A stretch of DNA of 64,000 nt from assembly GCA_021157965.1 (NCBI GenBank), contig JAGGVO010000015.1, positions 1-64,000 on the forward strand, written 5' to 3'. Shown here one piece after another: positions 1,285 through 56,568 of the stretch. A program made the translations under genes and the position numbers. The notes beneath the pieces were generated by a model, which did not search any database, was not told where the DNA came from, and saw nothing but the letters and a program-made list of their open reading frames with translations. Numbering within the stretch: the first letter of the stretch is position 1; each line of letters begins with the position of its first letter. Origin of the DNA: Candidatus Neomarinimicrobiota bacterium. GTDB lineage: Bacteria > Fidelibacterota > Fidelibacteria > Fidelibacterales > Fidelibacteraceae.

Positions 1285-3888
1285 CTATTTCATCAACACC
1301 ATCTTCTGCGTTTTCGCAAAACTCCCGGCTTTCAATCGTGCAATATACACACCGGAGCTATAAGGAGATGCATCCCAGGTGACGGTGTGATAACCTGCAG
1401 GTGTGTGCTGGTTGATGATCTGCTCAACCATTCTTCCGGTGATGTCATAAATATTGAGGGTGATCTGTGCCGGTTCCGGCAGGGAAAATTCAATATGCGT
1501 AACCGGATTAAAGGGATTAGGATAGTTGGGATATAATACAAATGATTCCGATTTTATGACCGGTTGGATTTCCGTAGGCAGTTTTTCCGGAATGCCATGC
1601 AATGCCAGATCGGCAACCAGGCCAATCACTGCCCGGGCCCGGTCGTGAAAGACCGGCAGATCGAAAAATTCCATATCATCCCGGCCAAACCCGTGCATAT
1701 TGGGGTTGGAGATTAAATATTCATAGCTTGTATCCGGATGAAAAATACTCTGCGTAAAGGATATGGACGGCAAGGGATCTGCCTGGCCGTATGTAGTTCC
1801 TTCCCATCGTTTTCCAATGGACAAATCGAGATCATTCTGATACAAAACCGACTGCATCCGATCCAGAACATAGCTTTGAATGGCAATATTCTCATCTCTG
1901 TCGAAATACTGAGGGACAATCTCTCTCAAATTCAGCGTATCGTACCCGATGGCTTCCACATCCACATTGAAGAGGATCTGATCCCACCAGGGATTGTCCG
2001 GCCATTCTTTGAAAGATTCGGCACCAATCTCCCAGGATCCCCACAGAGCAAATAGGATGGAATAAGGTGTATCAACATCTTTCAGGATTCGGGCACACTC
2101 CAGAAGTGCGGCCACACCGCTGGCATTTAAATCCGCATTGGGATTGATAACAGACGGTTTTGACCAACACTCTATGCCATCGTAAAAAGCCGTCATGAGT
2201 ATACAGGAATCAGGATATTCAGTCCCTTCTTTATAAACCAGCAGATCACGGATATCTACACTTCCATACGCCTCAACAGGACGGGCAAGAACCGTGTATC
2301 CAAAAGATTCCAGTGTTTCTGTTAAATATTGCTTTGCCAGGGGCATATCATTGGCTTCCGTCATATTGTTGGTGTAAAACCGTTCAACAATTCGTTGGGA
2401 CGTACCTCCAATAACTGCCGTGGTATCTCCGGATAAAACACGGACCTGCACATCCAGATTCTCCTGTCTGACTGCATCAATAATATCTGTTACAGTTGCT
2501 GAGGTTTCAAAATCAAACTGAGCATCAAACAGCTTTTGGACATATTCTTTTGCAAAACGCAAGGCCGCCACGGAACGGATATGGTTGTGTCCCTGGGCAA
2601 CGATGATGGCCGTCACAATCTCCTGGGTATCGCAGGGTGCCATTTCAAAAGGACCCGCACTGAAGAGGAACCGGCGGTCCCCCGGTGGAACTTCCGTAAT
2701 ATTCAGCCATCCCTCTCCCGTTACCGGATCACCGGTGTAATGAAAGCGGGTCGGCTCACCCGTCGTCGGATCAATCCACGATCCTCCCCCTTTTTTCAAT
2801 CCCCGGACAACATGATATGCCTCTTCCTTATTGTCGGGATCCTGATTCAGTGTCGGGGACCCCTTTAGAACGATAAATCCGGATAAATCTGCTTCCCTCC
2901 AGCCCGGACGGGGGGTACCGGACCAGCTTGCCGTATCTCCGGGGCTTTTTACCTGAGGCCTTTGAAGAAAGGTAAATCCTACTGCAGGGGGTGTTAAACC
3001 ATATTTCAAATCTTCCGGAACACCATTAAATACATATCCCATTGTTAGACTGGTATCAACCCCTGCACAGTTATCCCACGCCATTCCCAATTCCGGAGCT
3101 GCCCAGATGCCGGCATACATCTCTTTATAGTGGTTATCCGATTTGTTGATGACAAGGCTCCGGATAAAAAGCACATCTCCCAATATATCACTCCGGTCAA
3201 ATCCGTATAATGTCGTTTGTATCTCAACACCCATGGGGGCTCCACCCAGATTGGACGTATGAAGGCTCGTATCCATATCATTGCAGACACTCCATACCAT
3301 CTGATCACCTGAAAAGAGCGGTTTCCCGGATTCATCCACCGGGGCGCCCTGTTCCGACGGCCAGTTCAGGTAATCGGCAGAAAGACTGTCATGCCGGTTG
3401 ATTTTATACAACCTGTAAGACGGATCTGCCGGATCTGCCGCTTTCCAGATGCAATGTTCCTGAGGATAGTTACTCATAGGCACCACAACCTGGTTTAATG
3501 TATCGAAATAGAGAATCTGTCCGGGCTGAAACTGTGAAAAGAACTCAGCAACCGCCGTCCGGATATCCTCGTGGAATGTGAGCGAATCCTTTTCCTTTGT
3601 CTGTCCGCTTACCAGAAAGAGTCCGGACTGGAACACATTCGATATTCCGGAACCTTTCGGCCATTCCATGCCGGGATACGATGTGGCCCGAAAAGAAACC
3701 CAGTCCCCCACATTGCTGGTCCACGTGCAGATCCGGTTTCCGTCAAACTGACCATAATCCACGGTAAAATCCTGGGCTTCTGTCACAAAACGATCCGTCC
3801 CGTCCAGGGGCATGGCTCCATGCATCACGGATATCCATAGAAAAACAGACATAACGACTAAAATCAGGATATTTCTTTGCCTATTCAT
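1285..3888 (-). CDS. T9SS-exported M28-like metallopeptidase homologue with degenerate zinc site
   Basis: An 867-residue protein. I place the start at the ATG at 3886-3888 because GAGG sits six bases upstream; an in-frame ATG at 3900 overlaps that site. A signal peptide (MNRQRNILILVVMSVFLW) is followed by a long beta-rich region without recognised family, then from about residue 560 an M28 aminopeptidase-like fold, and finally a type A T9SS sorting domain (YPNYPNPFNPVTHIEFSLP ... KMVLMK). The M28 motifs are altered: the usual AHYD reads AFYD, ADDNASG reads ADLNASG and GAEELG reads GSWEIG. This removes one His ligand, the bridging Asp and the general-base Glu, while NVDVEAIG and a late FHPDT remain. 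It is probably a secreted non-catalytic M28 relative. Export family: high confidence; lack of activity: inference. Confidence 0.85.
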   Translation of the reverse strand: MNRQRNILILVVMSVFLWISVMHGAMPLDGTDRFVTEAQDFTVDYGQFDGNRICTWTSNVGDWVSFRATSYPGMEWPKGSGISNVFQSGLFLVSGQTKEKDSLTFHEDIRTAVAEFFSQFQPGQILYFDTLNQVVVPMSNYPQEHCIWKAADPADPSYRLYKINRHDSLSADYLNWPSEQGAPVDESGKPLFSGDQMVWSVCNDMDTSLHTSNLGGAPMGVEIQTTLYGFDRSDILGDVLFIRSLVINKSDNHYKEMYAGIWAAPELGMAWDNCAGVDTSLTMGYVFNGVPEDLKYGLTPPAVGFTFLQRPQVKSPGDTASWSGTPRPGWREADLSGFIVLKGSPTLNQDPDNKEEAYHVVRGLKKGGGSWIDPTTGEPTRFHYTGDPVTGEGWLNITEVPPGDRRFLFSAGPFEMAPCDTQEIVTAIIVAQGHNHIRSVAALRFAKEYVQKLFDAQFDFETSATVTDIIDAVRQENLDVQVRVLSGDTTAVIGGTSQRIVERFYTNNMTEANDMPLAKQYLTETLESFGYTVLARPVEAYGSVDIRDLLVYKEGTEYPDSCILMTAFYDGIECWSKPSVINPNADLNASGVAALLECARILKDVDTPYSILFALWGSWEIGAESFKEWPDNPWWDQILFNVDVEAIGYDTLNLREIVPQYFDRDENIAIQSYVLDRMQSVLYQNDLDLSIGKRWEGTTYGQADPLPSISFTQSIFHPDTSYEYLISNPNMHGFGRDDMEFFDLPVFHDRARAVIGLVADLALHGIPEKLPTEIQPVIKSESFVLYPNYPNPFNPVTHIEFSLPEPAQITLNIYDITGRMVEQIINQHTPAGYHTVTWDASPYSSGVYIARLKAGSFAKTQKMVLMK

Positions 3889-3974
3889 AACAGACCTCAT
3901 TATTATGCTCTAAAATATTTTAACACTTAATTAGTTATATGTCAAGATTAATAGGAACCCTATTTTACAGGATC

Positions 3975-22599: not shown

Positions 22600-23280
22600 T
22601 TATCCTTCAATTAATATTTCATTCAGTTTTTGAAGATTTTTTAATTCAATGGTCCGGCCTTTTACAGCAATCAGTCCCTCCCGGTGTAATTCCGACAAGA
22701 CACGGGACACAGAAGGCCTTTCCACATTAAAGAGATCTGCCATAGCTTCACGGCTAATGGGCACCAGGACACTAAGGGACTGGTTTTTGCGGAGGGACAG
22801 AAGATACCGAGCCAGTTTCTGGCGGATTGTGCGGAAAGAAAGCATCTGTATCTTCTTTGCCAGCATAACGGTCCTGTCAGTTACATCCCGGATAATCATC
22901 CGAATAAAATCCGGATTCTGTGCAATGAACATAAAAATGAAATCTTTTGGAATCAGTACAATTTCACAGGATGATACAGCTACGACATTAACGGGAAAAC
23001 GATTTTCTCTTGCAAATATAAATGCAGAAGCCACCGTATCGGGAGCATTTATCACTTCCACCGTAAAGGAGCGTCCGGAAAAATCCAGCATCTCGCCCCG
23101 GCATTTCCCCTGTATTAAACAATAAAGTGACTCTATGGGATCTTTTGAAAAAGCAATAACATTTCCAGGTATATAATGCCGAACATATATTCTGTCTTCC
23201 GGCAGATATTTGGATAATGCCTCTTCATCGAAAGAGCTAAACAGAGGAATTTTTCTCAATTTTTGATATATATTTTCCAT
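22600..23280 (-). CDS. Crp/Fnr-family regulator, probably HcpR-like
   Basis: A 226-residue Crp/Fnr protein: a cyclic-nucleotide-binding-like beta barrel (about residues 10-125), a long dimer helix, and a winged helix with ISREAMADLFNVERPSVSRVLSELHREG. No N-terminal cysteine cluster like that of Fnr is visible. It is divergent from hcp, with only 75 bp between the start codons, and a strong palindrome lies 4 bp from its start. This arrangement matches HcpR, which controls hcp in response to nitric oxide in other anaerobes. No Shine-Dalgarno sequence precedes the ATG, so the transcript may have a very short leader. Confidence 0.85.
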   Translation of the reverse strand: MENIYQKLRKIPLFSSFDEEALSKYLPEDRIYVRHYIPGNVIAFSKDPIESLYCLIQGKCRGEMLDFSGRSFTVEVINAPDTVASAFIFARENRFPVNVVAVSSCEIVLIPKDFIFMFIAQNPDFIRMIIRDVTDRTVMLAKKIQMLSFRTIRQKLARYLLSLRKNQSLSVLVPISREAMADLFNVERPSVSRVLSELHREGLIAVKGRTIELKNLQKLNEILIEG

Positions 23281-23355: not shown

Positions 23356-25008
23356 ATGTCAAACATGTTTTGTTTTCAATGTCAGGAAGCGGCAGGAGGT
23401 ACCGGATGCACCATCAAAGGTGTTTGCGGTAAAAAACCGGAAGTCGCCCGGATGCAGGATCTGCTCATATACACAGCGAAAGGAGTAGCTGTTTTAAGCC
23501 GTGAAAAACGCAAACAGAACACGCTGTGTGAAACACTCGACCGATATCTGGCGGATTCCCTGTTTACAACCATAACGAATGCCAATTTTGATATGCAGGT
23601 CATCGCGGATAAAGTCTTACAGGGACTTGCTTTACGGGATCATATCAAAGAGAATATCGATATGGATGCACTCCCGGAATGGCTCAAGAACCACGATGTC
23701 ATCACCTGGAAAGGAGCAACCATTCCCGAATTGGAAGAAAAAGCAAAGAACGTAGGTGTTTTAGTGACGAAGGATAAGGATATCAGGAGTCTCCGGGAAC
23801 TGCTCACCTATGGTTTAAAGGGAATGGCTGCTTATGCAGAACACGCACTGAACCTGGGTTATTCGGATAATGATGTCTTCGGTTTCATGGAAAAGGGGTT
23901 GATTGCCACCCTTGATGAGAGTTTGAGTGTCGAAGATTTGACAAATCTGGTGTTAGAATGCGGTAAATTTGGTGTCAGCGCCATGGCTCTTCTGGATAAG
24001 GCAAACACTTCCACCTATGGTCATCCAGAGATCACACAAGTAAATATTGGCACCCGGAACAATCCCGGAATTCTGATCAGCGGTCATGACCTGAAGGATT
24101 TGGAAGAACTTCTTAAGCAGACCGAGGGATCCGGAATCGATGTCTACACACACAGTGAAATGCTGCCGGCCCATTATTATCCCGCATTCAAGAAATATGA
24201 TCATTTTACAGGGAATTATGGGAATTCCTGGTGGAAGCAGACCGAAGAATTTGAGACCTTCAATGGCCCCATTCTTTTTACCACTAACTGTCTGGTTCCT
24301 CCCCGTAAAAAATCCACATATAGAGACCGTGTATTCACTACGGGGACTGCCGGATTCAGCGGTTTTCCCCATATCGAAGACCGGCCAAAAGGTGGCACCA
24401 AGGATTTTTCACCCATCATCGAGATGGCAAAAACCTGTAAACCGCCGGTAGCCATCGAAAACGGCACCATTACTGGCGGGTTTGCCCACAATCAGGTTGA
24501 ACAATTAGCTGATAAAGTGGTAGACGCCGTAAAAAGCGGAGCCATCCGGAAATTCATTGTCATGGCCGGATGTGACGGCAGAATGAAAAGCCGTGAATAC
24601 TATACCGAATTTGCCCAAAAACTTCCGAAAGATACGGTCATCCTAACGGCCGGTTGTGCTAAATATCGTTACAACAAGCTGCCTCTGGGAGACATCGGTG
24701 GAATTCCACGAATTCTGGATGCGGGGCAGTGTAACGATTCATATAGTCTTGCTGTGATTGCACTCAAGCTGAAGGAGCTCTTTGAACTAAACGATATTAA
24801 CGAGCTCCCTATTTCATACAATATTGCCTGGTATGAACAAAAGGCAATCATTGTCCTGCTGGCTCTGCTCTACCTTGGTGTAAAGAATATTCATCTGGGA
24901 CCCACACTCCCCGCGTTTCTCTCCCCCAATGTAACAGATGTACTTGTAAAAAACTTTGGAATTGCTCCGATTGGCTCTGTTGACGAAGATATCAAACTTC
25001 TTGCCTGA
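23356..25008 (+). CDS. hcp: hybrid cluster protein (hydroxylamine / NO reductase)
   Basis: A 550-residue hybrid cluster protein. The N-terminal cysteines 6, 9, 18 and 24 (C-X2-C-X8-C-X5-C) are of the spacing typical of strict anaerobes and bind the cubane cluster. The hybrid Fe-S-O cluster ligands are suggested by [38 protein letters not shown] and [12 protein letters not shown]. Known enzymes reduce nitric oxide to nitrous oxide or hydroxylamine to ammonia and protect against nitrosative stress. AAAGGAG lies before the ATG, and a strong terminator follows at 25031. No hcr reductase gene is next to it. Confidence 0.97.
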
Positions 25009-32751: not shown

Positions 32752-35391
32752 TCAAAACCAATATTTCAGCTTCATCCTGAATCGAAATTCGTTATACTCT
32801 TTCTCCACATCCACTTCATCACTTACAACAATCAAATCCATATTACCGTTAATTGTAAAGTTTTTCATTATTTTATAACCCACACCGGCTTTAAGTGTAA
32901 ATTTGCTGTTATCAAGCTGGATTTCATCAGTATAGGGTTCTCCTTCATTGTACTGGCCGTCTTCATTGATGTCCACGTAGGATTCCCCGGGATCAAACAA
33001 ACCGTTTTTATCCCTAAAACCATCAACCATACTATAGCCGATATATGTGTTCAGCCGGTTATTCATCCATTTATACCCTATCCGGCTGCTGTGAATCATA
33101 AAACGTGTCCCGGCCTGAGTCACATCCTCAGGATTTGTTGTTGAAAATCCACCGCCCAGTGTTACGGAAAGGGGAAATTCAAAACCAGCTGTCAAAGCTG
33201 TTGTCAGCGACTGGGTCAGGTAGTTTGTATTATAATCTTCCGTGGAGTTTGCGTCCTTATAATTCATTAACATATAGCTGGCATTGATATTAAACTGCGT
33301 TTTAAACGCCGTAAACTGATATGAGGGACTCACCGTATGTGTAATGGTGACATTGTCGTTCAGTGTCAGTTCTTCGGGATTCTCGTAACCTTCCGCCGGT
33401 TCGCCAAGCCTGTTCATAACCCGCATGGAATAATTCAGCATGGGGAAACCATAAAAATTGAGTCCGATACCTCCAATCAGGGATTCAGTATTTGTGGTTT
33501 GATTCTTGGTATTTCCGGCTACGTTGTCAAAGGTATTTTCAAATCGGCCGGTCAGCGACAATTGGTTTTTAAGAAGACGTATTCTGGCTCCGGAACGGAA
33601 TCCCATAATATCTGTCTGCAAGGATGGATTACCAATTGTAACAAAATTAGCCGGAATCCTGAAATATTCTGAGTTTAAATCTATTTGGAGCCATTTTAAA
33701 TCGAGGGGTGTGCGAAATGCTACCCGGTAGGTTCCTCTTTTCACCACATCTTCAATCAGATAGGACGCGGGGTCAAAATCATCCAGATCCGGAAAAGGAA
33801 TTGAAAGTCCCATTCCCTGTGCGCTTCCCAGAAAGATATCATCCGTTAGTGGATAACCCAACAAATCATTGATATCATTGAGCAATGTGGTATCCAGTCC
33901 GCCTTCATGAATCAAAAGGGAATCATCCGCTCGAAGATCATTGGTAGCGGAAATTGCCAGTTCTGCAGATAAAACCGTCCGTTCATGGTTAAAGTGGAGC
34001 TCGGAATTAAGCCCCACCACAGAATTTGCTAAAAACAGATAATGATCTTCCAGGGGTTCATATTCCAAATTGAGTGAACTCACATCATCATAGGATTTAA
34101 AAGCGGAAATACCGACCCGGAAATGGCGATAAAAATCCAGGGATGTAGACAATCCCCTGAATTCCCGGATAGGCGTTCCTTTATCATGATGTATATAGAG
34201 AGTATCCCCTGTAAGATTCCGCATCATTTGCCAGTGTGTTGAATCGGGGTTAGTTTCCACAATGGGTTCAATAAGCTGCCGGGTTGTTCCATGGACATAA
34301 GCCGTTTGCCACCAGCCCAGCTTAAGCCATGCAGATATTCCGCGAACACGGGTTCCTTTTAACGTTAATTCAGTAAACTCCGGTGCGGCATCACCAAAGG
34401 TTACATCGAGAAGAGGCGACCTGAAATCAACACGCAAACGGTTTAAAGGCTGTCTTCGCAAACTTAAATCATGTGCCTTTTTATCAATAACATGGGTATT
34501 CAGGAGAGCTGATGTATTCAATTGGATTTTCCCATAGCGCAGGCGAACCCTGGCGGACGCTTTGTGGACATCCATAGGACGGTTTTCCGGTTGTTCCTTC
34601 CCATAGAATATGTCGTAATCCGAATCGAGTCCTACATTCGCATTGATTTTCAGCTTATCCTGCCAGGCCGGCCGTATCCCGCGGCCTGCAACGGGGACTC
34701 TTTTACCGATGCTGACGGGATAACGTTTCATAAAAAGGGTTTTCCCACTTTTATCTTCCAGAAGAATTTTCACTTCCTGAGACCCGCTTGAAAGTTGTCT
34801 CTCAGGAATATAAGTCACAACAGCCCCGTCCTGAATAATTTTATTTGATACATCTGTTGCATTCAAAACAATCCGCAATTGATTTTTACTAAGCAAATTC
34901 TCCGGATCATGGACCAAAAACACAAATGTGGGTTTATCATCATCCGTCTGAACATTGGGCTCAGGATAGAGCATCTGAATGGAAAAACGTTCAGGTTCAA
35001 TCTCCGATTCAAAACGGCCCACTTTAATCCGCAATGGATCCTTTTCTCCGCCTTCCGGATAGAAAGCCTGATTGTTATAGGCATCTTTTGCCCAGAAATA
35101 ATACTCTAAAATGCCTTCAATTACTTCAAATCCGGGGATCTCTGCTGTATAATTCACATCCTTTTCCATTTCAACGGATGTAAACCCACCGGTTTCCGCC
35201 GTTTTATAATAGAGCCTGACCGATTCAATGGGGGATGCATCGGTGATAACAATTTCAAATCGGATGGGACTGCCGGCTGTGATATTACCAATTTGGGGAA
35301 CAGATACAAATGTGGGAGCCTGTCCGTCATCCTGGGCAAAAAGCGAAAGGGTAAAACCAAGCACGATCAGAACTATTTTGCGACACTTCAT
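32752..35391 (-). CDS. predicted outer-membrane beta-barrel protein of the Fn3-FecR cassette
   Basis: An 879-residue exported protein of no family I recognise. GGGGAG seven bases before the ATG at 35389-35391 decides the start; an upstream ATG at 35409 overlaps the FecR stop. After a signal peptide (MKCRKIVLIVLGFTLSLFAQ) there is an Ig-like segment (residues about 25-100, DASPIESVRLYYKT) and a second beta domain. From about residue 230 on, the protein is made of alternating amphipathic strands, and it ends in FRFRMKLKYWF, an aromatic C-terminus typical of proteins inserted by BamA. An acidic loop near residue 790 resembles calcium-binding turns. It is the last gene of a three-gene cassette. 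Confidence 0.78.
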   Translation of the reverse strand: MKCRKIVLIVLGFTLSLFAQDDGQAPTFVSVPQIGNITAGSPIRFEIVITDASPIESVRLYYKTAETGGFTSVEMEKDVNYTAEIPGFEVIEGILEYYFWAKDAYNNQAFYPEGGEKDPLRIKVGRFESEIEPERFSIQMLYPEPNVQTDDDKPTFVFLVHDPENLLSKNQLRIVLNATDVSNKIIQDGAVVTYIPERQLSSGSQEVKILLEDKSGKTLFMKRYPVSIGKRVPVAGRGIRPAWQDKLKINANVGLDSDYDIFYGKEQPENRPMDVHKASARVRLRYGKIQLNTSALLNTHVIDKKAHDLSLRRQPLNRLRVDFRSPLLDVTFGDAAPEFTELTLKGTRVRGISAWLKLGWWQTAYVHGTTRQLIEPIVETNPDSTHWQMMRNLTGDTLYIHHDKGTPIREFRGLSTSLDFYRHFRVGISAFKSYDDVSSLNLEYEPLEDHYLFLANSVVGLNSELHFNHERTVLSAELAISATNDLRADDSLLIHEGGLDTTLLNDINDLLGYPLTDDIFLGSAQGMGLSIPFPDLDDFDPASYLIEDVVKRGTYRVAFRTPLDLKWLQIDLNSEYFRIPANFVTIGNPSLQTDIMGFRSGARIRLLKNQLSLTGRFENTFDNVAGNTKNQTTNTESLIGGIGLNFYGFPMLNYSMRVMNRLGEPAEGYENPEELTLNDNVTITHTVSPSYQFTAFKTQFNINASYMLMNYKDANSTEDYNTNYLTQSLTTALTAGFEFPLSVTLGGGFSTTNPEDVTQAGTRFMIHSSRIGYKWMNNRLNTYIGYSMVDGFRDKNGLFDPGESYVDINEDGQYNEGEPYTDEIQLDNSKFTLKAGVGYKIMKNFTINGNMDLIVVSDEVDVEKEYNEFRFRMKLKYWF

Positions 35392-35405
35392 GGGACATCT
35401 CCCCG

Positions 35406-36566
35406 TCATTTAGGTTCAACAAATATTCTGAGACTGATAGTCCCGTCCGGATTTTCAACCTGTATAATATCCAATACCTTATATTCCCCTTTATCAACCT
35501 TGTCCAGAACATCATTGACAGTCTCACCGGCACCACTGACTTTAGCTGTCTCAAGTTTTCGGTTCTCCGACAATTCGCCGATTTCTTGAATTTTAGAATG
35601 GGAACCCAACCTTTCCACATTCTTAGCGATTTTCTTTTTTTGTTCCACCGTCCTGTCAAATTCAAACATCACTCTTCTGGATTCAGCCCCGTCCATGGAG
35701 AAGGTACATCCAAAATCACCAGGATTGAGTCCCTTTAAGGTAAAGGTTCCGTTTCCGTTTGAGATGGCAATTTCAGCCTGATCTTTCAATGCATCGGAGG
35801 AAACGCCCACTTTCAGGGATGGAGAATCGGATACTACGGTAATCCGGCCGGAAAATTGATTGGCTGTCTTATTAGAGGATAAATTTTTCACCTGAATCGT
35901 CACATTGACCGGTTGCCCGGCCGGAATTTTTCCCTGTTTTTCAGGAATCACGTGAAATCCCCATTCCGGCTCGATTTTATCTTTCCATCCGGGTATTTCC
36001 GATTTTTTCAATTTTGAAACACGCTGTGGTTTTTGCCGGGGTTCAATACGTGACATGGTCATTTCTCTTGCCAGAATGGTTCCCAGTTCATTACTGAATT
36101 CCACGGTGCCACTGATCACAAAAAGATCGGATATATTTTCAACCTGGTTATACAAAAGGTCAAATTCCGTGCCTTTAACGGAAGCAACAGAGACAGGAGT
36201 TTGAATTTTAAACTCGCCCTTTTGTTTTTGCACTTTCGTCCAGATTTCTCCCTGAGTCAGATATAAATCTGTATTCTGAACAGATTGGGATACCTTCTGA
36301 GCACGTATTTCGAGCTCCGTTAATTCCCTGATTTTCAGTTGGGATCCATCCATAAAGACGATGGCTGCAAATTCATCCCTATTTGTCTTCAACCAATCAC
36401 CATCATAGAGTATTTGACCGACATAACTTTGTTTATAGAGTTTTCCCGCCGCAGGTTTCACCATGACATTCCCCTTGATTTTAATCACTGCGGCCACTTT
36501 TTCTGCTGCCGTGAGGGATAGTGAGAAAACCAGAAGCAGCAAGAGACATTTATTCAGGTGTTTCAT
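35406..36566 (-). CDS. exported FecR-domain protein
   Basis: A 386-residue protein. The start is one of two adjacent ATGs; the second (36564-36566) has GGAGG six bases before it, the first only three. A signal peptide (ends near SLTAA) is followed by a FecR-type domain at about residues 25-165: IKIKGNVMVKPA, DGDWLKTNRDEFAAIVFMDG, TPVSVASVKGTEFDL. An Ig-like segment at about 205-300 and a short charged tail follow. FecR domains often sit in the periplasm and take part in signal transfer or surface assembly. There is no membrane anchor besides the signal peptide. It lies between the Fn3 and barrel genes. Confidence 0.85.
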   Translation of the reverse strand: MKHLNKCLLLLLVFSLSLTAAEKVAAVIKIKGNVMVKPAAGKLYKQSYVGQILYDGDWLKTNRDEFAAIVFMDGSQLKIRELTELEIRAQKVSQSVQNTDLYLTQGEIWTKVQKQKGEFKIQTPVSVASVKGTEFDLLYNQVENISDLFVISGTVEFSNELGTILAREMTMSRIEPRQKPQRVSKLKKSEIPGWKDKIEPEWGFHVIPEKQGKIPAGQPVNVTIQVKNLSSNKTANQFSGRITVVSDSPSLKVGVSSDALKDQAEIAISNGNGTFTLKGLNPGDFGCTFSMDGAESRRVMFEFDRTVEQKKKIAKNVERLGSHSKIQEIGELSENRKLETAKVSGAGETVNDVLDKVDKGEYKVLDIIQVENPDGTISLRIFVEPK

Positions 36567-39500
36567 CATTCACCTCCTTCGGCAGCAGAAAAGATTAATT
36601 CAATTTCAATCACCTGCCCCTTTATTCTGAATTTACCGGTTTGAGACGGATCCGCCAGATGATTCCCTTCTTCATCCGATGAAATAACCCTGCAGAAATA
36701 ATCCATGGATGGATTCAGGGGCACTGGAGCTTCAGCCGGATAAGAAAACTGATTGGCACTCAAAGGCGGTGATTCAAATAAAACCGATGTAAAATCGCTG
36801 CTGGTGCTGATCTGAACAATAGCATGACTCACTCCGGCAGGTCTTTTCCAGGAAAAGGAAATGTTTCCCGGTTCAAACAACTCATCGAGGGGATACTCCA
36901 GGGTTGTAATCCGGTCGCCTGACAGGGTAAACTGAAAAGGAGCTGACCATGGGAAAGCATTAGCACTTGAAATAAGACTCCGGACCCGCCAAAAACAGTT
37001 ATGATCATACTTCAACTCTCTTCCTACAGCTTCAGGAAGACTGATATTTGCTTCTGTCACCCGGTCGTGGTTCCAAATCAAAGAAGTAAACTCTTCGTCC
37101 TCGGCAACCATGATTTCATAGCGGTCTGCGTAACGAACATTTGACCAGGAAAAAACAATGGCGGAAGAATAGACTTTTTCTCCATTTGCCGGAGATTCGA
37201 GGGTAGGCGTCATATTGGAAACCACCTGAAAGGTGAGCACGTTGCTCCAATCTGTCAGGGGATTATTCCCTTCGTCAAGGGCCCTTACGCGGGCAAAAAT
37301 ATCCCGCCGCTCTTCAAAATAACCCGGTGCTGACGGCTGAAATTCTTTTGCTTCAACCCTTTCAGTCCGTGCGTCACTAAAGCCATCATCGTAGGAAAAA
37401 CTTATTTCATACCGTACACTGCCTTCCGGTTCCCCACTCCACGCCAGTCTTAGCCGATTTACCGGATATATGCCCTGATTGGCAGGTGTAACAAAGTGGA
37501 GGGTTTCTTCTTCATTACCGGAAATTGCAGGTAATTCCTGAAATGCAAATGAAAAAACCGGTGAAATAACAACCCCTTTCACCGGATGAATTCCGCGAAC
37601 TCTCCAGTAGTAGGGCTTATTAAGCTGAAAAATCCCTGTTTCTCCGTCATAAGACACTTGTTTTTCTGACGTTTCCCTGGCATAGAGGAAGGACTGAAAG
37701 CTTTCATCTTCCGAAATTTCCAGAACAAAGGTCAGATTTTCGGGACACGACCAGCTAAAGGTTGGGAGATTGATCAGTGAAGTTTCGGACCGGGGTGATT
37801 CAAGCTGGATATCCGGCCCAGGTGAACTCCTGTAGGATTTTACATTACTCCAGGCACCCCAGGGTTCGTCATCATAGTCCACTCCGCGAACCTGCCAGAA
37901 ATAAAGGGTACCCCAATACAGATCAAACTGATCTTCCGTTATCAGATTTTGACTGACAACTGTTTCAATTACCTGACTGCGGAAATCGGGATCTGTCGAG
38001 AGTCTCACTTCATATTGAGGAGCCGGTGGAATTGCCGGATCCCACATAAGAAGGCTTTCGGACAAGACAGGCGGAACAACCGGTTCGATATAGACCCGCC
38101 GGATTTCAGACGGAATTCCATGGATTTCATCGTTTGCCAATGGGGTAATTTGAAAATAGACATTGGAGTCAAAAGGAAGGCCCAACTCTCCCCTGTCAAT
38201 GGTTGCAGTCATGCCCGTCATGGCATCAAGGCGCCAGATTTCATCCATTCCTTCGGCATCGGAATAAGCCGTCAGGCGATAAGTATCCGCTCCGGCGACG
38301 GAATTTGTCCTTTCAACCATCATTTGGTTCTGATCTCTGAGCCAGTTTGCCACAATTCCCACCTGTTGGTTGGCGCCCGGTCTGGATGGAAGGATGACTT
38401 CATAAACTCCGGACCCGTTTCCAAGCGGCATCCCGTCCCGTAAGAGCACAAGCTGAACATACATCTGTTGACCGTATTCAAAAAAGTCATCAGTTACAAA
38501 GACCGGCAGGGCATTGGTTGAATACTCTTCTGAAAAGATAGGGGTTGAAAGTTCAGGATCTGTACCGGCATTCACCATGACAGCCCGGGCAAATGGTACA
38601 GGTTGGGTGTATCTTACCATAAAACCCGGATTTCCAGCCGGATCGGGTTCTATCAGGAATGGTTCATAAAGGACAGATACAAAGGCAGCAGGATTGATAA
38701 CGATCGGTTCATTCGTAGATGCAATGATATTCCCCGATGAGAGAGCCTGTACATTTACATAAACCTGATCATATCCTGCAATCTGATTCCACACATCCTC
38801 AAGGGGAAATGGAAATCCCGGAGTGAAAAAATCCATAATCACCTCTTCACCTCCGGCATCCGATGACAGGGTAATCATATATTCATCAACGCCACTTACA
38901 CCCTGAATCAGTTCAACGAGAGGCTGAAGTGGATTTTGTGGATTCCGGCTGAGACGAATAAACAAATCCACTTCATTAAAAAAGTTAAGATTCAGGGGAC
39001 GTGGGACATCCCAGAAGAATGTATTACCATCCAGCGTTACCCCAATTTGTCCATAGAGTATCATTTCAGGCGTTATCTGCAACTCATTCACCGGCAGGCG
39101 CAAAGAGGTTTCCAACAACATATCGGAGTTCCATAGTGGCTGGATCAGACGTCCGTCTTCCCGGATATCCGGCATATCGGAGATCAAAATCTCATAACCC
39201 CGTGCTGACGCATAGGGAGACCAAAAAGCCGTAAGGTCCCGATTTGTCAGAGACCAGTCCACCACCGGAAAATCAAGAGTTTTTACTGAAAAAGAGTATG
39301 TCACAGAAGGACCGCCTGCTACTTCGTCGGGATTGAGGGGGATCACCTCCCAATAATAGGTTTCACCTGGCAGCAAAGGTACCTCGGAATCGGAGGGATA
39401 CTGATACATTTTTTGCCGCAAAACGGTTGTAAAAAAGGGATTCTCAACATTTGGATCATCGGCGTATGAAAGGTGAAATTCAAACAAATCCTGACCTGCC

Positions 39501-41230
39501 GGTGCTTCCCACGAAAAAACGGGATTGGTTTCAGCCTGATTTTCTCCATTGGCAGGAGATTGCAGGGAGATATTTAATATTTTGAAATTGCCGATCACCG
39601 TATGGTCGTCGGGAAGTCCGAGCATGGTTTCATTGGCATCCAGTGGAATCAGTTTCCAAAAATATTGCTTTCCGGGATATAACCAGCCGTTTTCATCCAT
39701 TCGCAATTTATAGGGAAGTGTCTGGATTACCGTATTAAGGACATTCCCGATATCTACGGTTTGATCATTGATATCACTGATCCGAAGCTCATAATAGGGG
39801 ACTGCTGCGGGGACATCCGCATTGAATGTGGGTAAAACCGTAAAAACCTCATCCCCCGTAATCGGTTCGGTCAACTGGATGGGCGAGACGGTAAAAGTGC
39901 TGATATCACTCCAGGGGGACGGATCGGGCCCCGGATTCATGCGGATCTTCCAGACATAGCGTTTGCCGGGAACCAGGGGTTCTTCTTCCAAAGGATAGGT
40001 ATAAGGCAGGCTTTGGATGGGATCGCTCTGCCACCAGGGGTTTTCCACCATAGGGTCGACATCAGCCTCACTGAGCCAGATTTCATATTCCTGGGCACAG
40101 GCCGTCAAATCCCAGTTAAAAATCGGATTGACACTGTTGACCGTTGCCCCGTAAGCCGGTGAAGACATCCGGTCCTGGGTAATCCGTTTGCCATAACTGA
40201 AAATATACACAGGACTCGTTATCGGATCAGGCCAGCCCCAGATTCCTTTCTGGCCGATATAATCGTAGCCGTCAATGTATTCTCTGGCTTCCACCTGCCA
40301 CACGTATTCATAGCCGCAGGCCAATTCCCGTTCACTGGAGGGATACTGAAGAGATACTGTGCGAACGGTTCCCGTTTCAGGAACCCTGAAAATAGAGGTG
40401 TAAGATTCTTCCCAGCGGGTATCCAGAAAGACTGCTGTCACATCCTCAAAGGCATCATCATAACTGCTGTGAATTTCAGGATTATACTGGGCCACTTTGA
40501 GCCTGTAATCAATAACCACGCCGGGGCGGAATCCCGGTGAATCCCAGCGAAACCAGGGTTGAAAATCCGTAACATCCGCCCTCTGAACCGGTTCATTTAA
40601 AACAATTTTACTGGATAAAATATTGGTCAGATTTTCACCCGGCATCTGGGCTTCTGGTTTATCCCAGGTCCAGTTCCGGTCGTACCGTTTATCTACAAAG
40701 CTGTGGTCCCATGACAAATCCAGCAACCGGTTTTCGTCCGTATCCATCACCAGTCGTGAATCTCTGTCTGTATCTGCCCTTGTCACATTTTCCCAGGCAA
40801 TCATTTTAATATCATATTTACCAGCCGGCAGATATCCGTTGGTTTCAATCATATCCTGAAATTTCTTTGTGATTTCAAACACCATCATCCGGTCCTCGGT
40901 AAAGCTGGAATTCATGAGGAGTATTGTTGAATTGGGTTGCACTTCATAGGGATCGGTGACACCCCAGGCAACGGGATTATCACTTTCAGAAATACCGGAT
41001 ACATTCTGAACGCTGAGACGGAACTCCACATTCACATACATTACGTCATCCGTCTTATTCGTCAGACTCACGGTCCATAAATTGATATTGGGATCGTTCC
41101 AGCTTTGCAAAGTGAACTGTCCTGTCATTAACAGCTGGACTTCAATATCCAGCTCCTCTCCCATCGGGGCCGCGTCAACAAAATGTATACACAATAAAAA
41201 AGCTATCATCAAAATGGAAATATTTTTCAT
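36566..41230 (-). CDS. large exported protein with multiple fibronectin-III-like repeats
   Basis: A 1554-residue protein with a signal peptide (MKNISILMIAFLLCIHFVDA). A unique N-terminal domain (about 25-200) is followed by many Fn3-like modules of 90-110 residues. They are recognised by the recurring pattern SPANGE...NPVFSW, then YEI-type strands, then PGKRYVWKIR / PGETYYWEV. At least six are clear by eye, and several more diverged ones lie in the middle. The end (IEIELIFSAAEGGE) has no T9SS or LPXTG signal, so the export route beyond the periplasm is unclear. The stop codon overlaps the start of the FecR gene. It probably forms an elongated surface or periplasmic scaffold. Confidence 0.85.
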   Translation of the reverse strand: MKNISILMIAFLLCIHFVDAAPMGEELDIEVQLLMTGQFTLQSWNDPNINLWTVSLTNKTDDVMYVNVEFRLSVQNVSGISESDNPVAWGVTDPYEVQPNSTILLMNSSFTEDRMMVFEITKKFQDMIETNGYLPAGKYDIKMIAWENVTRADTDRDSRLVMDTDENRLLDLSWDHSFVDKRYDRNWTWDKPEAQMPGENLTNILSSKIVLNEPVQRADVTDFQPWFRWDSPGFRPGVVIDYRLKVAQYNPEIHSSYDDAFEDVTAVFLDTRWEESYTSIFRVPETGTVRTVSLQYPSSERELACGYEYVWQVEAREYIDGYDYIGQKGIWGWPDPITSPVYIFSYGKRITQDRMSSPAYGATVNSVNPIFNWDLTACAQEYEIWLSEADVDPMVENPWWQSDPIQSLPYTYPLEEEPLVPGKRYVWKIRMNPGPDPSPWSDISTFTVSPIQLTEPITGDEVFTVLPTFNADVPAAVPYYELRISDINDQTVDIGNVLNTVIQTLPYKLRMDENGWLYPGKQYFWKLIPLDANETMLGLPDDHTVIGNFKILNISLQSPANGENQAETNPVFSWEAPAGQDLFEFHLSYADDPNVENPFFTTVLRQKMYQYPSDSEVPLLPGETYYWEVIPLNPDEVAGGPSVTYSFSVKTLDFPVVDWSLTNRDLTAFWSPYASARGYEILISDMPDIREDGRLIQPLWNSDMLLETSLRLPVNELQITPEMILYGQIGVTLDGNTFFWDVPRPLNLNFFNEVDLFIRLSRNPQNPLQPLVELIQGVSGVDEYMITLSSDAGGEEVIMDFFTPGFPFPLEDVWNQIAGYDQVYVNVQALSSGNIIASTNEPIVINPAAFVSVLYEPFLIEPDPAGNPGFMVRYTQPVPFARAVMVNAGTDPELSTPIFSEEYSTNALPVFVTDDFFEYGQQMYVQLVLLRDGMPLGNGSGVYEVILPSRPGANQQVGIVANWLRDQNQMMVERTNSVAGADTYRLTAYSDAEGMDEIWRLDAMTGMTATIDRGELGLPFDSNVYFQITPLANDEIHGIPSEIRRVYIEPVVPPVLSESLLMWDPAIPPAPQYEVRLSTDPDFRSQVIETVVSQNLITEDQFDLYWGTLYFWQVRGVDYDDEPWGAWSNVKSYRSSPGPDIQLESPRSETSLINLPTFSWSCPENLTFVLEISEDESFQSFLYARETSEKQVSYDGETGIFQLNKPYYWRVRGIHPVKGVVISPVFSFAFQELPAISGNEEETLHFVTPANQGIYPVNRLRLAWSGEPEGSVRYEISFSYDDGFSDARTERVEAKEFQPSAPGYFEERRDIFARVRALDEGNNPLTDWSNVLTFQVVSNMTPTLESPANGEKVYSSAIVFSWSNVRYADRYEIMVAEDEEFTSLIWNHDRVTEANISLPEAVGRELKYDHNCFWRVRSLISSANAFPWSAPFQFTLSGDRITTLEYPLDELFEPGNISFSWKRPAGVSHAIVQISTSSDFTSVLFESPPLSANQFSYPAEAPVPLNPSMDYFCRVISSDEEGNHLADPSQTGKFRIKGQVIEIELIFSAAEGGE

Positions 41231-54021: not shown

Positions 54022-54101
54022 AATGTTAGGGGTGCTGTCCTAAAAAGGGCGGCTGAGAGCAAACCCTTGAACCTGAAACGGATAATACCGGCGGAGGAAA
54101 A
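54022..54101 (+). promoter_or_regulatory. TPP riboswitch (THI element)
   Basis: About 80 bases before the receptor gene show the THI-box order: a GGGGTGCT opening, GGCTGAGAGC, then ACCCTTGAACCTGA and CGGATAATACCGGCGGAGGAAA (given as separate pieces, 54082-54100 for the last). The ribosome binding site GGAGG of the receptor gene is part of the 3' end of this element and only 4-8 bases before its ATG, so thiamine pyrophosphate probably blocks translation. No terminator hairpin is seen. Confidence 0.93.
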
Positions 54102-54102
54102 C

Positions 54103-56568
54103 ATGAAAGCTCATCATCTTATCATCGCCATCATTCTTTTAATCAGTAATAGGGTTCACGCCGAAACACTTGAGGGACTTATTTTATCTTCGGTGACCGG
54201 TGAACCGGTACCCTATGTAAACATCTCAATAGAGGGGACAGATCTGGGAACTATTACAGATCCGGACGGATATTTCACCGTGAAGGCCGACACTCTGCCT
54301 TTAGAAGTGAAAATCGGTCATATCCAGTTTGAAGACCGGATTGTTGATTTGTGGAATCCTTTCACAAAAATCATCCTGGAACCGGATGTCCTTCAGACGG
54401 AAGAAATCCGGGTTATTGCCAGCCGAGCCGTCAAAGGAAAAACACCCGTAGCCTTTTCCACGATCGATCAGAAGGATATTCAAACATCCTACTCCCATCA
54501 GGATGTCCCCATGGTCATGAAAAAAACACCGGGAGTATATGTTTATTCCGATGCAGGAAATGGTACGGGATATTCTTATCTGAAAATTCGGGGATTTTCC
54601 CAGGATCGGATCGGCATTATGCTGAACGGTATTCCTTTAAATGATCCGGAATCCCATTCTGTGTACTGGGTGGATCACGGAGACATTCTGGCATCGGTAT
54701 CCAACATTCAGATACAAAGGGGAACCGGTAATTTTCTCAACGGAGCTACAGTTTTCGGGGGAACGGTCAATATGGAAACCAATTATGCCCATTTGCCCCG
54801 GGGACTTCTCATCACAGCCGGTTATGGGAATTATATGGGGACGGGAGGACTTGATTTGCCGGGCTATAAAATTTCCTCCACATACAACGGCAGGCCATTT
54901 GCCGCAAAACCTCTCTATTTTTACGCTCGGATGAGTTACATGGACAATCCCGGATACAGGGTGGGAAGCGGTACCACCCAAAAATCTTTCCATACCGGAT
55001 TGCAAAAACAGAGTCCGGATAAAATGACGCGGGTGGAGTGGATTTTCGGCGATGAAATAACCCACTTTTCCTGGGACGGAATTTCACCTCAATATGGATA
55101 TAATCTGGATAACCGGGATGAGCGCCGCTATAATTACTATGCCGACCCCGCCTATAACGGTGGCTATGACGATGCAAACAAGGATGTATTTTCACAGCAT
55201 ATTGTTTCTTTACAACACAGTCGGAAATTTACTTCCTCCCTGTTGAACCTGACCTTATATGCCGTAAAAGGGGATGGATATTACGAACAGTTTAAAGGCA
55301 ATCAGTCCGTCAAAGAATACAATCTTACATCCATACTACCAGATACAGCCTCTGTAGACCTGATCCGTCAGAAATGGTTAAAGAATGATTATCAGGGGCT
55401 GCTTCTTCAATATAATATGCAACATCTCAATAACATGGACATTACTCTGGGAACAGAAGCCCGTTTTTACCAGTCCGATCATTTCGGAAATGTCTCATCG
55501 CTGGAAAACATCCCCCTTTCCCCGCCGGATAATCATAAATACTATTGTTCGGACAGTTATAAAAACACAATCTCTTTCTATCTTCATAGCATCTACAATC
55601 TCAGAGAAAATTTGAGTTTTCTCGCTGACCTGCGTTTTCTCTCCCATTTTTACACTTTTAACCAGGATCGGATTGGTGCTTTTAAAGGATATGAATACAA
55701 ATTAAAGTACTTGTTTCTGGATCCCCGTCTTGGAATCATGTGGGAAGCTGCTGACGGGTTAACACTCTTTGCCAACATTTCCACTGCCCACCGTGAACCG
55801 GCGGATTCAGATATTTATGACCAGTCCGATCCTGAGGCCGAGCCGGCAATTCAATTGACAGATTCTAAATATGCTGATCCGCTTGTAAAAGAAGAGCGGC
55901 TGATACATACCGAACTGGGTATCGATTATTCCAATGACCGCTTATCCGCTGCTTTGAACCTGTACCGGATGGATTTCAGGGATGAGCTGATTCCCATGGA
56001 TTACCGGTACCGGGATGACGATAACATTCTCAAAGGGAATGTACCCAAAACCATCCATCAGGGCATCGAAGCGGATATTGCATTCCGGTTGAACCGCCAT
56101 GTATCCCTGCGTTCCAATGTAAGTTATTCACATAATTCATTTGTTGAATTTTTTGGAGATGCACTGGGTTGGGGAGGATATGGGGCCCTTGCAGATTATT
56201 CCGGAAAAACCATTCCCGCGTATCCTTCTCTCATGGCCAATATAAGCGGAACAATCAGTCTGGGGGGGTATTCTCTAAACCTGGATTTGCAATATACCGG
56301 AAAACAATATATCGATTTTTCAAACACGGAAGAAGCGGCAGTATCGCCACATACCATTGTAAATATGGCCTTAATCCTGCCATTGATTCAATCCCGTGCG
56401 GGAAATCTGACGGTAGACGCTAAAATCTACAATGTTTTTGATACTTTATATGAAACCTTCGGATATAATTATTATCTGGATCCCGATACACGTATTGATG
56501 TCTACTGGCCGGCAGCTACGAGGAATTACTTTTTGACAGCCACCTGGCACATCAAAGCCGGGTTATGA
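54103..56568 (+). CDS. TonB-dependent receptor, probably for thiamine
   Basis: An 821-residue outer-membrane receptor. The ATG at 54103 is preceded by GGAGGAAAAC. After a signal peptide (to about residue 20) comes a carboxypeptidase-regulatory-like domain (about 22-100: GLILSSVTGEPVPYVNISI), a plug (about 110-230: VMKKTPGVYVYSD, LKIRGFSQDRIGIMLNGIPL), and a barrel ending in NYFLTATWHIKAGL. The TPP riboswitch in front of it suggests that it imports thiamine or a thiamine precursor, as described for similar receptors in Bacteroidetes. This substrate call rests on the riboswitch and not on the protein itself. Its end overlaps the convergent rhodanese gene by 6 bp. Confidence 0.92.
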   Translation: MKAHHLIIAIILLISNRVHAETLEGLILSSVTGEPVPYVNISIEGTDLGTITDPDGYFTVKADTLPLEVKIGHIQFEDRIVDLWNPFTKIILEPDVLQTEEIRVIASRAVKGKTPVAFSTIDQKDIQTSYSHQDVPMVMKKTPGVYVYSDAGNGTGYSYLKIRGFSQDRIGIMLNGIPLNDPESHSVYWVDHGDILASVSNIQIQRGTGNFLNGATVFGGTVNMETNYAHLPRGLLITAGYGNYMGTGGLDLPGYKISSTYNGRPFAAKPLYFYARMSYMDNPGYRVGSGTTQKSFHTGLQKQSPDKMTRVEWIFGDEITHFSWDGISPQYGYNLDNRDERRYNYYADPAYNGGYDDANKDVFSQHIVSLQHSRKFTSSLLNLTLYAVKGDGYYEQFKGNQSVKEYNLTSILPDTASVDLIRQKWLKNDYQGLLLQYNMQHLNNMDITLGTEARFYQSDHFGNVSSLENIPLSPPDNHKYYCSDSYKNTISFYLHSIYNLRENLSFLADLRFLSHFYTFNQDRIGAFKGYEYKLKYLFLDPRLGIMWEAADGLTLFANISTAHREPADSDIYDQSDPEAEPAIQLTDSKYADPLVKEERLIHTELGIDYSNDRLSAALNLYRMDFRDELIPMDYRYRDDDNILKGNVPKTIHQGIEADIAFRLNRHVSLRSNVSYSHNSFVEFFGDALGWGGYGALADYSGKTIPAYPSLMANISGTISLGGYSLNLDLQYTGKQYIDFSNTEEAAVSPHTIVNMALILPLIQSRAGNLTVDAKIYNVFDTLYETFGYNYYLDPDTRIDVYWPAATRNYFLTATWHIKAGL

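Follow-up and report, generated by a model that had tools for sequence, protein, structure and literature searches.

What does a FecR protein do between a giant Fn3-repeat protein and a putative outer-membrane barrel, with neither a sigma factor nor a TonB receptor encoded at its side? The question is raised by a 64,000-nt stretch of DNA (the window) in which three adjacent, co-directional ORFs encode the proteins we call A', FecR' and C' (Table 1). The original prediction, made from the letters of the DNA, saw in them a surface assembly or adhesion module composed of a multi-Fn3 protein, an exported FecR protein and a barrel-like protein.

All three ORFs lie on the minus strand just as they had been described, at the same coordinates and lengths, although two of them offer a choice of start. 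FecR' has 387 aa if it starts at its first ATG (ORF 35406-36569) and 386 aa if it starts at 36566, where the ATG overlaps the A' stop codon and has a well-spaced GGAGG six bases ahead. For C', the full ORF (32752-35409) gives 885 aa and a start at 35391 gives 879 aa; this inner ATG follows a GGGGAG site, 14 bp past the FecR' stop. The overlap and the 14-bp interval that had been reported match these two inner ATGs and, judged by sequence, the N-termini of all three proteins do resemble Sec signals, without a lipobox. Signals in a promoter and terminator scan stayed at about background level. Between congeners the three proteins are 85-93% identical and their dN/dS is 0.06-0.11, near that of the flanking antiporter gene (0.063), which indicates that A', FecR' and C' are functional genes.

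Table 1. Coordinates of the trio and its domains in the window.
Feature	Position	Strand	Remarks
A'	36566-41230	minus	Exported, 1554 aa; N-terminal domain and 13 Fn3-like repeats; without T9SS sorting domain
A' N-terminal region, mature part (residues 21-213)	40592-41170	minus	Common to canonical A of ~400 aa
A' 13 Fn3-like repeats (residues 214-1530)	36641-40591	minus	Iterated profile
FecR'	35406-36566	minus	Exported, 386 aa; translationally coupled to A'
FecR domain PF04773 (residues 60-157, 387-aa reading)	36099-36392	minus	Without DDK and KGTxFW
FecR' extra C-terminal domain (residues 195-387)	35409-35987	minus	Diagnostic of the window-type trio
C' outer-membrane barrel protein, 879 aa	32752-35391	minus	Predicted by homology, AlphaFold and Foldseek
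C' two Ig-like N-terminal domains (residues 27-228)	34708-35313	minus	Strand pattern in AlphaFold model
C' barrel (residues 247-879), about 24-26 strands	32755-34653	minus	AlphaFold; C-terminal Phe

The FecR assignment of the middle protein was borne out: PF04773 (E 3e-15) is its sole Pfam domain above cut-off, and Pfam found neither FecR_N/DUF4880 nor DUF4974 in it. Comparison of FecR with the LapA retention module and MpAFP (5ix9) gave E-values of only 5.6e-4 and 0.011, which makes this likeness no more than a lead.

In A', Pfam does not call PF00041, detecting only Ig_Rha78A_N near the C-terminus (E 7e-22), and a PDB sequence search gave no matches. The predicted multi-Fn3 architecture was recovered by an iterated profile, which resolves 13 repeats, the first corresponding in position to the single Fn3 domain of homologues described below. 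An AlphaFold model of residues 1-700 (pLDDT 75.5) points the same way, its Foldseek matches being fibronectin and LAR FnIII chains. One Fn3 domain spans ~3.5 nm; by analogy, the A' rod may reach ~45 nm, which would exceed the width of the periplasm and so favours surface exposure. No recognised surface-sorting signal was found in A', and we rejected the idea that it is type IX secretion cargo, as Pfam found no C-terminal Por_Secre_tail sorting domain in it, though PF18962 was detected in another window protein. That protein, an M28 peptidase encoded at 1285-3900, is type IX secretion cargo by virtue of its sorting domain, and the organism therefore probably has a T9SS.

No Pfam or NCBIfam family was found in C', and neither collection has a model for its barrel family. 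Its AlphaFold model, built from 45 aligned sequences (mean pLDDT 78.2, with most barrel blocks at 80-97), consists of two Ig-like domains and the large barrel that had been anticipated, with a low-confidence helical insert at residues 501-551. The outer-membrane type of C-terminus attributed to C' is likewise there, in the form of a final Phe, and 60 of the 65 barrel-family members longer than 740 aa end in this residue. Foldseek likens C' to other large outer-membrane barrels (MtrB, the ushers FimD and PapC, and TonB-dependent receptors), but with low TM-scores, and residues 27-128 gave a profile match to a peptidylarginine deiminase chain (E 4e-6). By Pfam, C' has neither the plug nor the N/C domains of ushers; the cassette holds no chaperone, pilin or multihaem cytochrome partner, and none of the scanned window genes was recognised as encoding a PapD-like chaperone. 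We rejected C' as an usher, since the fold likeness is only distant, and regard it as a predicted outer-membrane barrel of no assignable known type.

The key to the locus came from relatives of C'. When we sought barrel homologues with C' in 40 related genomes and then read 35 neighbourhoods, barrels appeared in other genera of Neomarinimicrobiota, and a second copy appeared in the window's own genome (G000, contig C41), beside a second FecR in an operon with a CHASE2 cyclase. Gene order in these neighbourhoods is almost constant: A (~400 aa), FecR (~230 aa), barrel (~840-950 aa) and D (~725-850 aa), the last a fusion of CHASE2 with a class III nucleotide cyclase. In 67 D sequences there is no variation at the residues expected, in this family, to serve metal binding (D475, D519), ATP specificity (K515, D593) and catalysis (N596, R600), which predicts that D is an active adenylate cyclase. 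No such CHASE2 or class III adenylate cyclase gene follows the window trio as a fourth member; by Pfam, the genes downstream encode a C26 amidotransferase and then PFOR, and the trio has the same flanking genes in two other genomes (G004, G005).

This canonical operon is widespread. In a scan of GTDB contigs for operon loci with a FecR alignment as query, the order A-FecR-barrel-D was intact in 52 of the 80 fetched loci, many of the others being cut by contig ends. The barrel family occurs in 173/245 Neomarinimicrobiota genomes (73/84 genera) and in 38/40 Calditrichota genomes, and was also seen in KSB1; CHASE2 occurs in 181/245 Neomarinimicrobiota genomes, a count that includes a second type of cyclase. 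Compared by hand, 165 of these 245 genomes have both barrel and CHASE2, 8 the barrel only, 16 CHASE2 only and 56 neither, as raw counts uncorrected for relatedness or completeness. The second type of CHASE2-adenylate cyclase stands apart from the FecR operon (L149 5853-9232, which is G000 contig C31; L153, L154, L157); at C31 it is followed by a protein with SH3b and M48 peptidase domains, and the type was seen in several genomes of the phylum. There are also stand-alone FecR-domain proteins of ~750 aa without a barrel neighbour (L035 9013-11301; L125, L135, L137, L144, L148).

Downstream of the operon, the next recognised gene is a PorX-type response regulator (REC + PglZ) in 26 of the 43 loci with enough sequence. 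It mostly starts 40-270 bp past the cyclase gene (for example L044 12392-13957 and L053 9274-10836) and is followed, by eye, by TsaE/TsaB/RimI/AccD/SurE/GuaA-like genes; in the window's genome, PorX stands apart (G000:C42:110599-112146). In Bacteroidota, type IX secretion is under PorX control, and for the P. gingivalis enzyme hydrolysis of oligoadenylates, both cyclic and linear, has been reported (PMC11320123).

All three window proteins are paralogous to this operon. Against canonical profiles, hhalign matched A' over residues 3-350 (P 99.2, E 1.5e-19), FecR' (P 99.9) and C' along its full length (P 100), and the signature A-x-Y-x-P-x-x-HSS...QYP...YVWQV is common to A' and canonical A. The trio thus comprises adjacent A, FecR and barrel homologues on one strand in canonical order, and its extra FecR C-terminal domain, multi-Fn3 A protein and barrel lineage place it in a long-rod, cyclase-less clade. 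In a tree of 54 barrels, all 12 window-type rows fall into one clade (SH-aLRT 100) outside the canonical barrels, Calditrichota ones included, in a midpoint rooting that does not fix the depth of the split. Rod length varies within the clade from 5 (family f24) to 17 (G042) Fn3 repeats, versus one in canonical A. A profile of the extra FecR' domain detected the window type in 17/245 Neomarinimicrobiota genomes, spread over 8 genera and 5 families, and in none of 40 Calditrichota genomes; two further copies, truncated by contig ends, lie in G001 and G003. The closest named match to FecR' in the FecR-alignment scan of GTDB contigs is from Marinimicrobia bacterium 46_43 (87% identity over the full length), in whose genus the window genome is placed, and many more Candidatus Neomarinimicrobiota records are among the matches.

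The cassette is therefore no peculiarity of one strain, and the original prediction was right to treat the three genes as one unit. Wherever the contig is long enough, window-type A', FecR' and C' occur together, in at least five families, and in the congener G002 the PFOR-amidotransferase and antiporter flanks are in place but the entire cassette between them is missing, as a clean block. As the cassette is present in G001, whose antiporter is more divergent, its absence likely reflects loss of the block in G002. The same genome also lacks the canonical A-FecR-barrel set but keeps D (L152 9049-11226, a canonical-type cyclase at the usual site beside a DnaG-like gene). Further cyclase-less variants exist (L189, with A, FecR and a short barrel; L063; L124; L129), and together with the solitary D of G002 they mark the trio as a separable module. 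The short-barrel set is a third paralogue (L188 6707-8959, L189 5952-8201), whose barrel of ~750 aa lacks the first N-terminal Ig-like part. In family f25 (L180, L183, L184, L185, L187), an ABC-2 transporter set (ATPase and two ABC2_membrane_6 permeases) lies co-directionally upstream of the window-type trio.

FecR' has diverged in ways that bear on its coupling to a cyclase. Cyclase-linked FecRs have two motifs in common even between phyla: DDK is present in 52/56 of them versus 0/14 window-type FecRs, and KGTxFW in 45/56 versus 0/14, the window type losing the Trp. FecR' is also longer by ~190 residues, which form the new C-terminal domain. Together with the other changes in the clade, the motif loss suggests that coupling to CHASE2 has been lost. 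However, the cyclase-less trios L124 and L126 keep both motifs, so that motif loss is no strict marker of uncoupling; and since the differences in rod length and motifs all belong to a single clade, they amount to no more than one event. A helix-plus-strand motif, LxxIxxGxYxIxxVxVE, is alike in canonical A C-termini and the FecR' C-terminus (window 35409-35700). By eye this suggests a transfer of the motif (helix and last strand) from canonical A to FecR', but we do not claim one: hhalign gave E 3.5e-4, yet over the 26 matched columns the probability was only 37% (1% in the reversed control).

Could the trio still be a sensor? The main rival to a structural role is that it forms a long-reach second input, acting in trans through the CHASE2 cyclase at C41 or C31. 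Two such cyclases do exist in G000, and hand counts found CHASE2 in 15 of the 17 genomes with a window-type trio, and a further barrel match likewise in 15 of the 17; G002, from which the window trio was likely lost, is without the canonical A-FecR-barrel set as well, although it keeps D; and a Crp/Fnr regulator is encoded in the window at 22600-23280. This last gene, whose product has a cyclic-nucleotide-binding domain, is divergent from a hybrid-cluster (prismane) gene at 23356-25008 and probably serves nitrosative-stress control rather than acting as a cAMP effector. Two observations count against signalling in trans, which we consider rather unlikely: FecR' has lost DDK and KGTxFW while carrying its new C-terminal domain, and in G182 (87% complete) the trio is present with no CHASE2 and no second barrel detected. 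We give still less credence to a secretion or assembly role, in which the C' pore would export the Fn3 rod and FecR' would serve as chaperone or gate, in a two-partner or usher-like manner. Such a role would fit the Sec-like export of A' without a T9SS sorting domain, the translational coupling of the genes and the appearance of the usher barrels PapC and FimD among the Foldseek matches of C', but the TM-scores against ushers, normalised to the query, reach only 0.2-0.3, and neither a chaperone nor a POTRA or plug domain was recognised; moreover, the same barrel family serves canonical A, a protein of only ~400 aa, so that exporting so large a rod is not what the family did ancestrally.

The remaining readings fare much worse. 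FecI, FecR and FecA form the iron-citrate signalling system, and the cassette shares its FecR domain; a TonB-dependent receptor is encoded in the same window too, and the sigma gene could be elsewhere. But FecR' has an N-terminal signal and neither the anti-sigma domain FecR_N/DUF4880 nor DUF4974, C' has neither a plug nor an STN domain, none of the scanned window genes was recognised as coding for an ECF sigma factor, and the trio is homologous to the CHASE2-linked operon instead. Classical signalling of this kind, rejected on the domain content of FecR' and C', is therefore highly improbable, and the earlier observation that the cassette itself has no sigma factor or TonB receptor holds. The nearest TonB-dependent receptor gene (54067-56568, with a plug and a CarboxypepD_reg-like domain) is 13 kb away. 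Least credible of all is a relic of the canonical operon decaying after cyclase loss. Absence of the cyclase, the patchy distribution and complete loss in G002 would accord with decay, but strong purifying selection on all three genes rejects it, and the ORFs are intact in five families and have gained domains.

Coupled with the homology data, these considerations make it somewhat probable, in our judgement, that the trio is a once-diverged, cyclase-less paralogue of an envelope-sensing operon and that its own products form a barrel-FecR-Fn3 rod complex uncoupled from cAMP output, most likely a structural or adhesive envelope rod. In the parent operon, a signalling module, the barrel would serve as anchor, FecR as periplasmic adaptor and A as the sensed or protruding part; if the analogy to other clusters that pair FecR with CHASE2 holds, occupancy of or strain on the complex might pass through FecR to the periplasmic CHASE2 domain and alter cAMP synthesis. 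In the window copy, C' would span the outer membrane while its two Ig domains face the periplasm, FecR' would act as a soluble periplasmic adaptor docking C' and the N-terminal part of A', and the outer membrane would either hold the long A' rod or let it through. Since the relay to CHASE2 is apparently lost and the long rod has become dominant, a structural or adhesive role appears most likely. The window trio thus resembles a signalling machine reduced to its outer half, with the switch gone. The original prediction of a surface assembly or adhesion module stands insofar as it recognised one unit, a barrel and a departure from the FecR/sigma/TonB type, but it missed the homology to a cyclase signalling operon. 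A bolder version would see in the operon an undescribed surface-to-cAMP signalling line, shared by two FCB phyla, with the T9SS also under its control, and in the window copy a new outer-membrane rod-assembly system with an exporting or anchoring barrel and FecR as gate; this we regard as a long shot.

More generally, the analysis connects a three-gene cassette that had been an orphan with an operon present in most of two large phyla, themselves largely uncultured, and supplies concrete candidate partners (FecR, barrel and Fn3 protein) for the CHASE2 sensor domain. The cyclase-less duplicate constitutes a natural experiment in which the outer sensing or anchoring part is split from cAMP output, and the frequent PorX neighbour makes it possible to test directly whether cAMP signalling is linked to type IX secretion. 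No publication joining Marinimicrobia and FecR, or describing the operon's barrel or Fn3 partners, was found in a literature search whose scope excluded most subscription journals and preprints; within the literature found, the A-FecR-barrel-CHASE2 operon and these partners are undescribed.

Individual components have relatives elsewhere. Leptospira Lsa33, LipL45 and Lsa19, which appeared as NCBIfam matches, are like FecR' exported FecR-domain proteins, and Lsa33 is annotated as a surface adhesin, but the scores are far below curated cut-offs. Closer in organisation is a Campylobacterota cluster of a CHASE2 adenylate cyclase, a FecR-domain outer-membrane protein, a cAMP phosphodiesterase and a TPR protein (PMC9239204). 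It combines FecR with a CHASE2 cyclase as the canonical parent operon does, but its published description includes neither an Fn3 protein nor a separate barrel family, and the window trio has neither cyclase nor phosphodiesterase. In the BiofilmReg operon of Burkholderiales, a response regulator gene is followed by genes for a LysM/FecR protein and a CHASE2 histidine kinase, and an insertion mutant in the response regulator shows control of biofilm formation (PMC5192318). There too a periplasmic FecR-domain protein adjoins a CHASE2 sensor, as in the canonical operon, but the output is a histidine kinase rather than a cyclase, LysM takes the place of Fn3 or barrel partners, and the window trio is without a CHASE2 protein. 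With FecR-CHASE2 pairing thus known in Campylobacterota and Burkholderia, the operon from which the window trio derives is a variation on a known theme.
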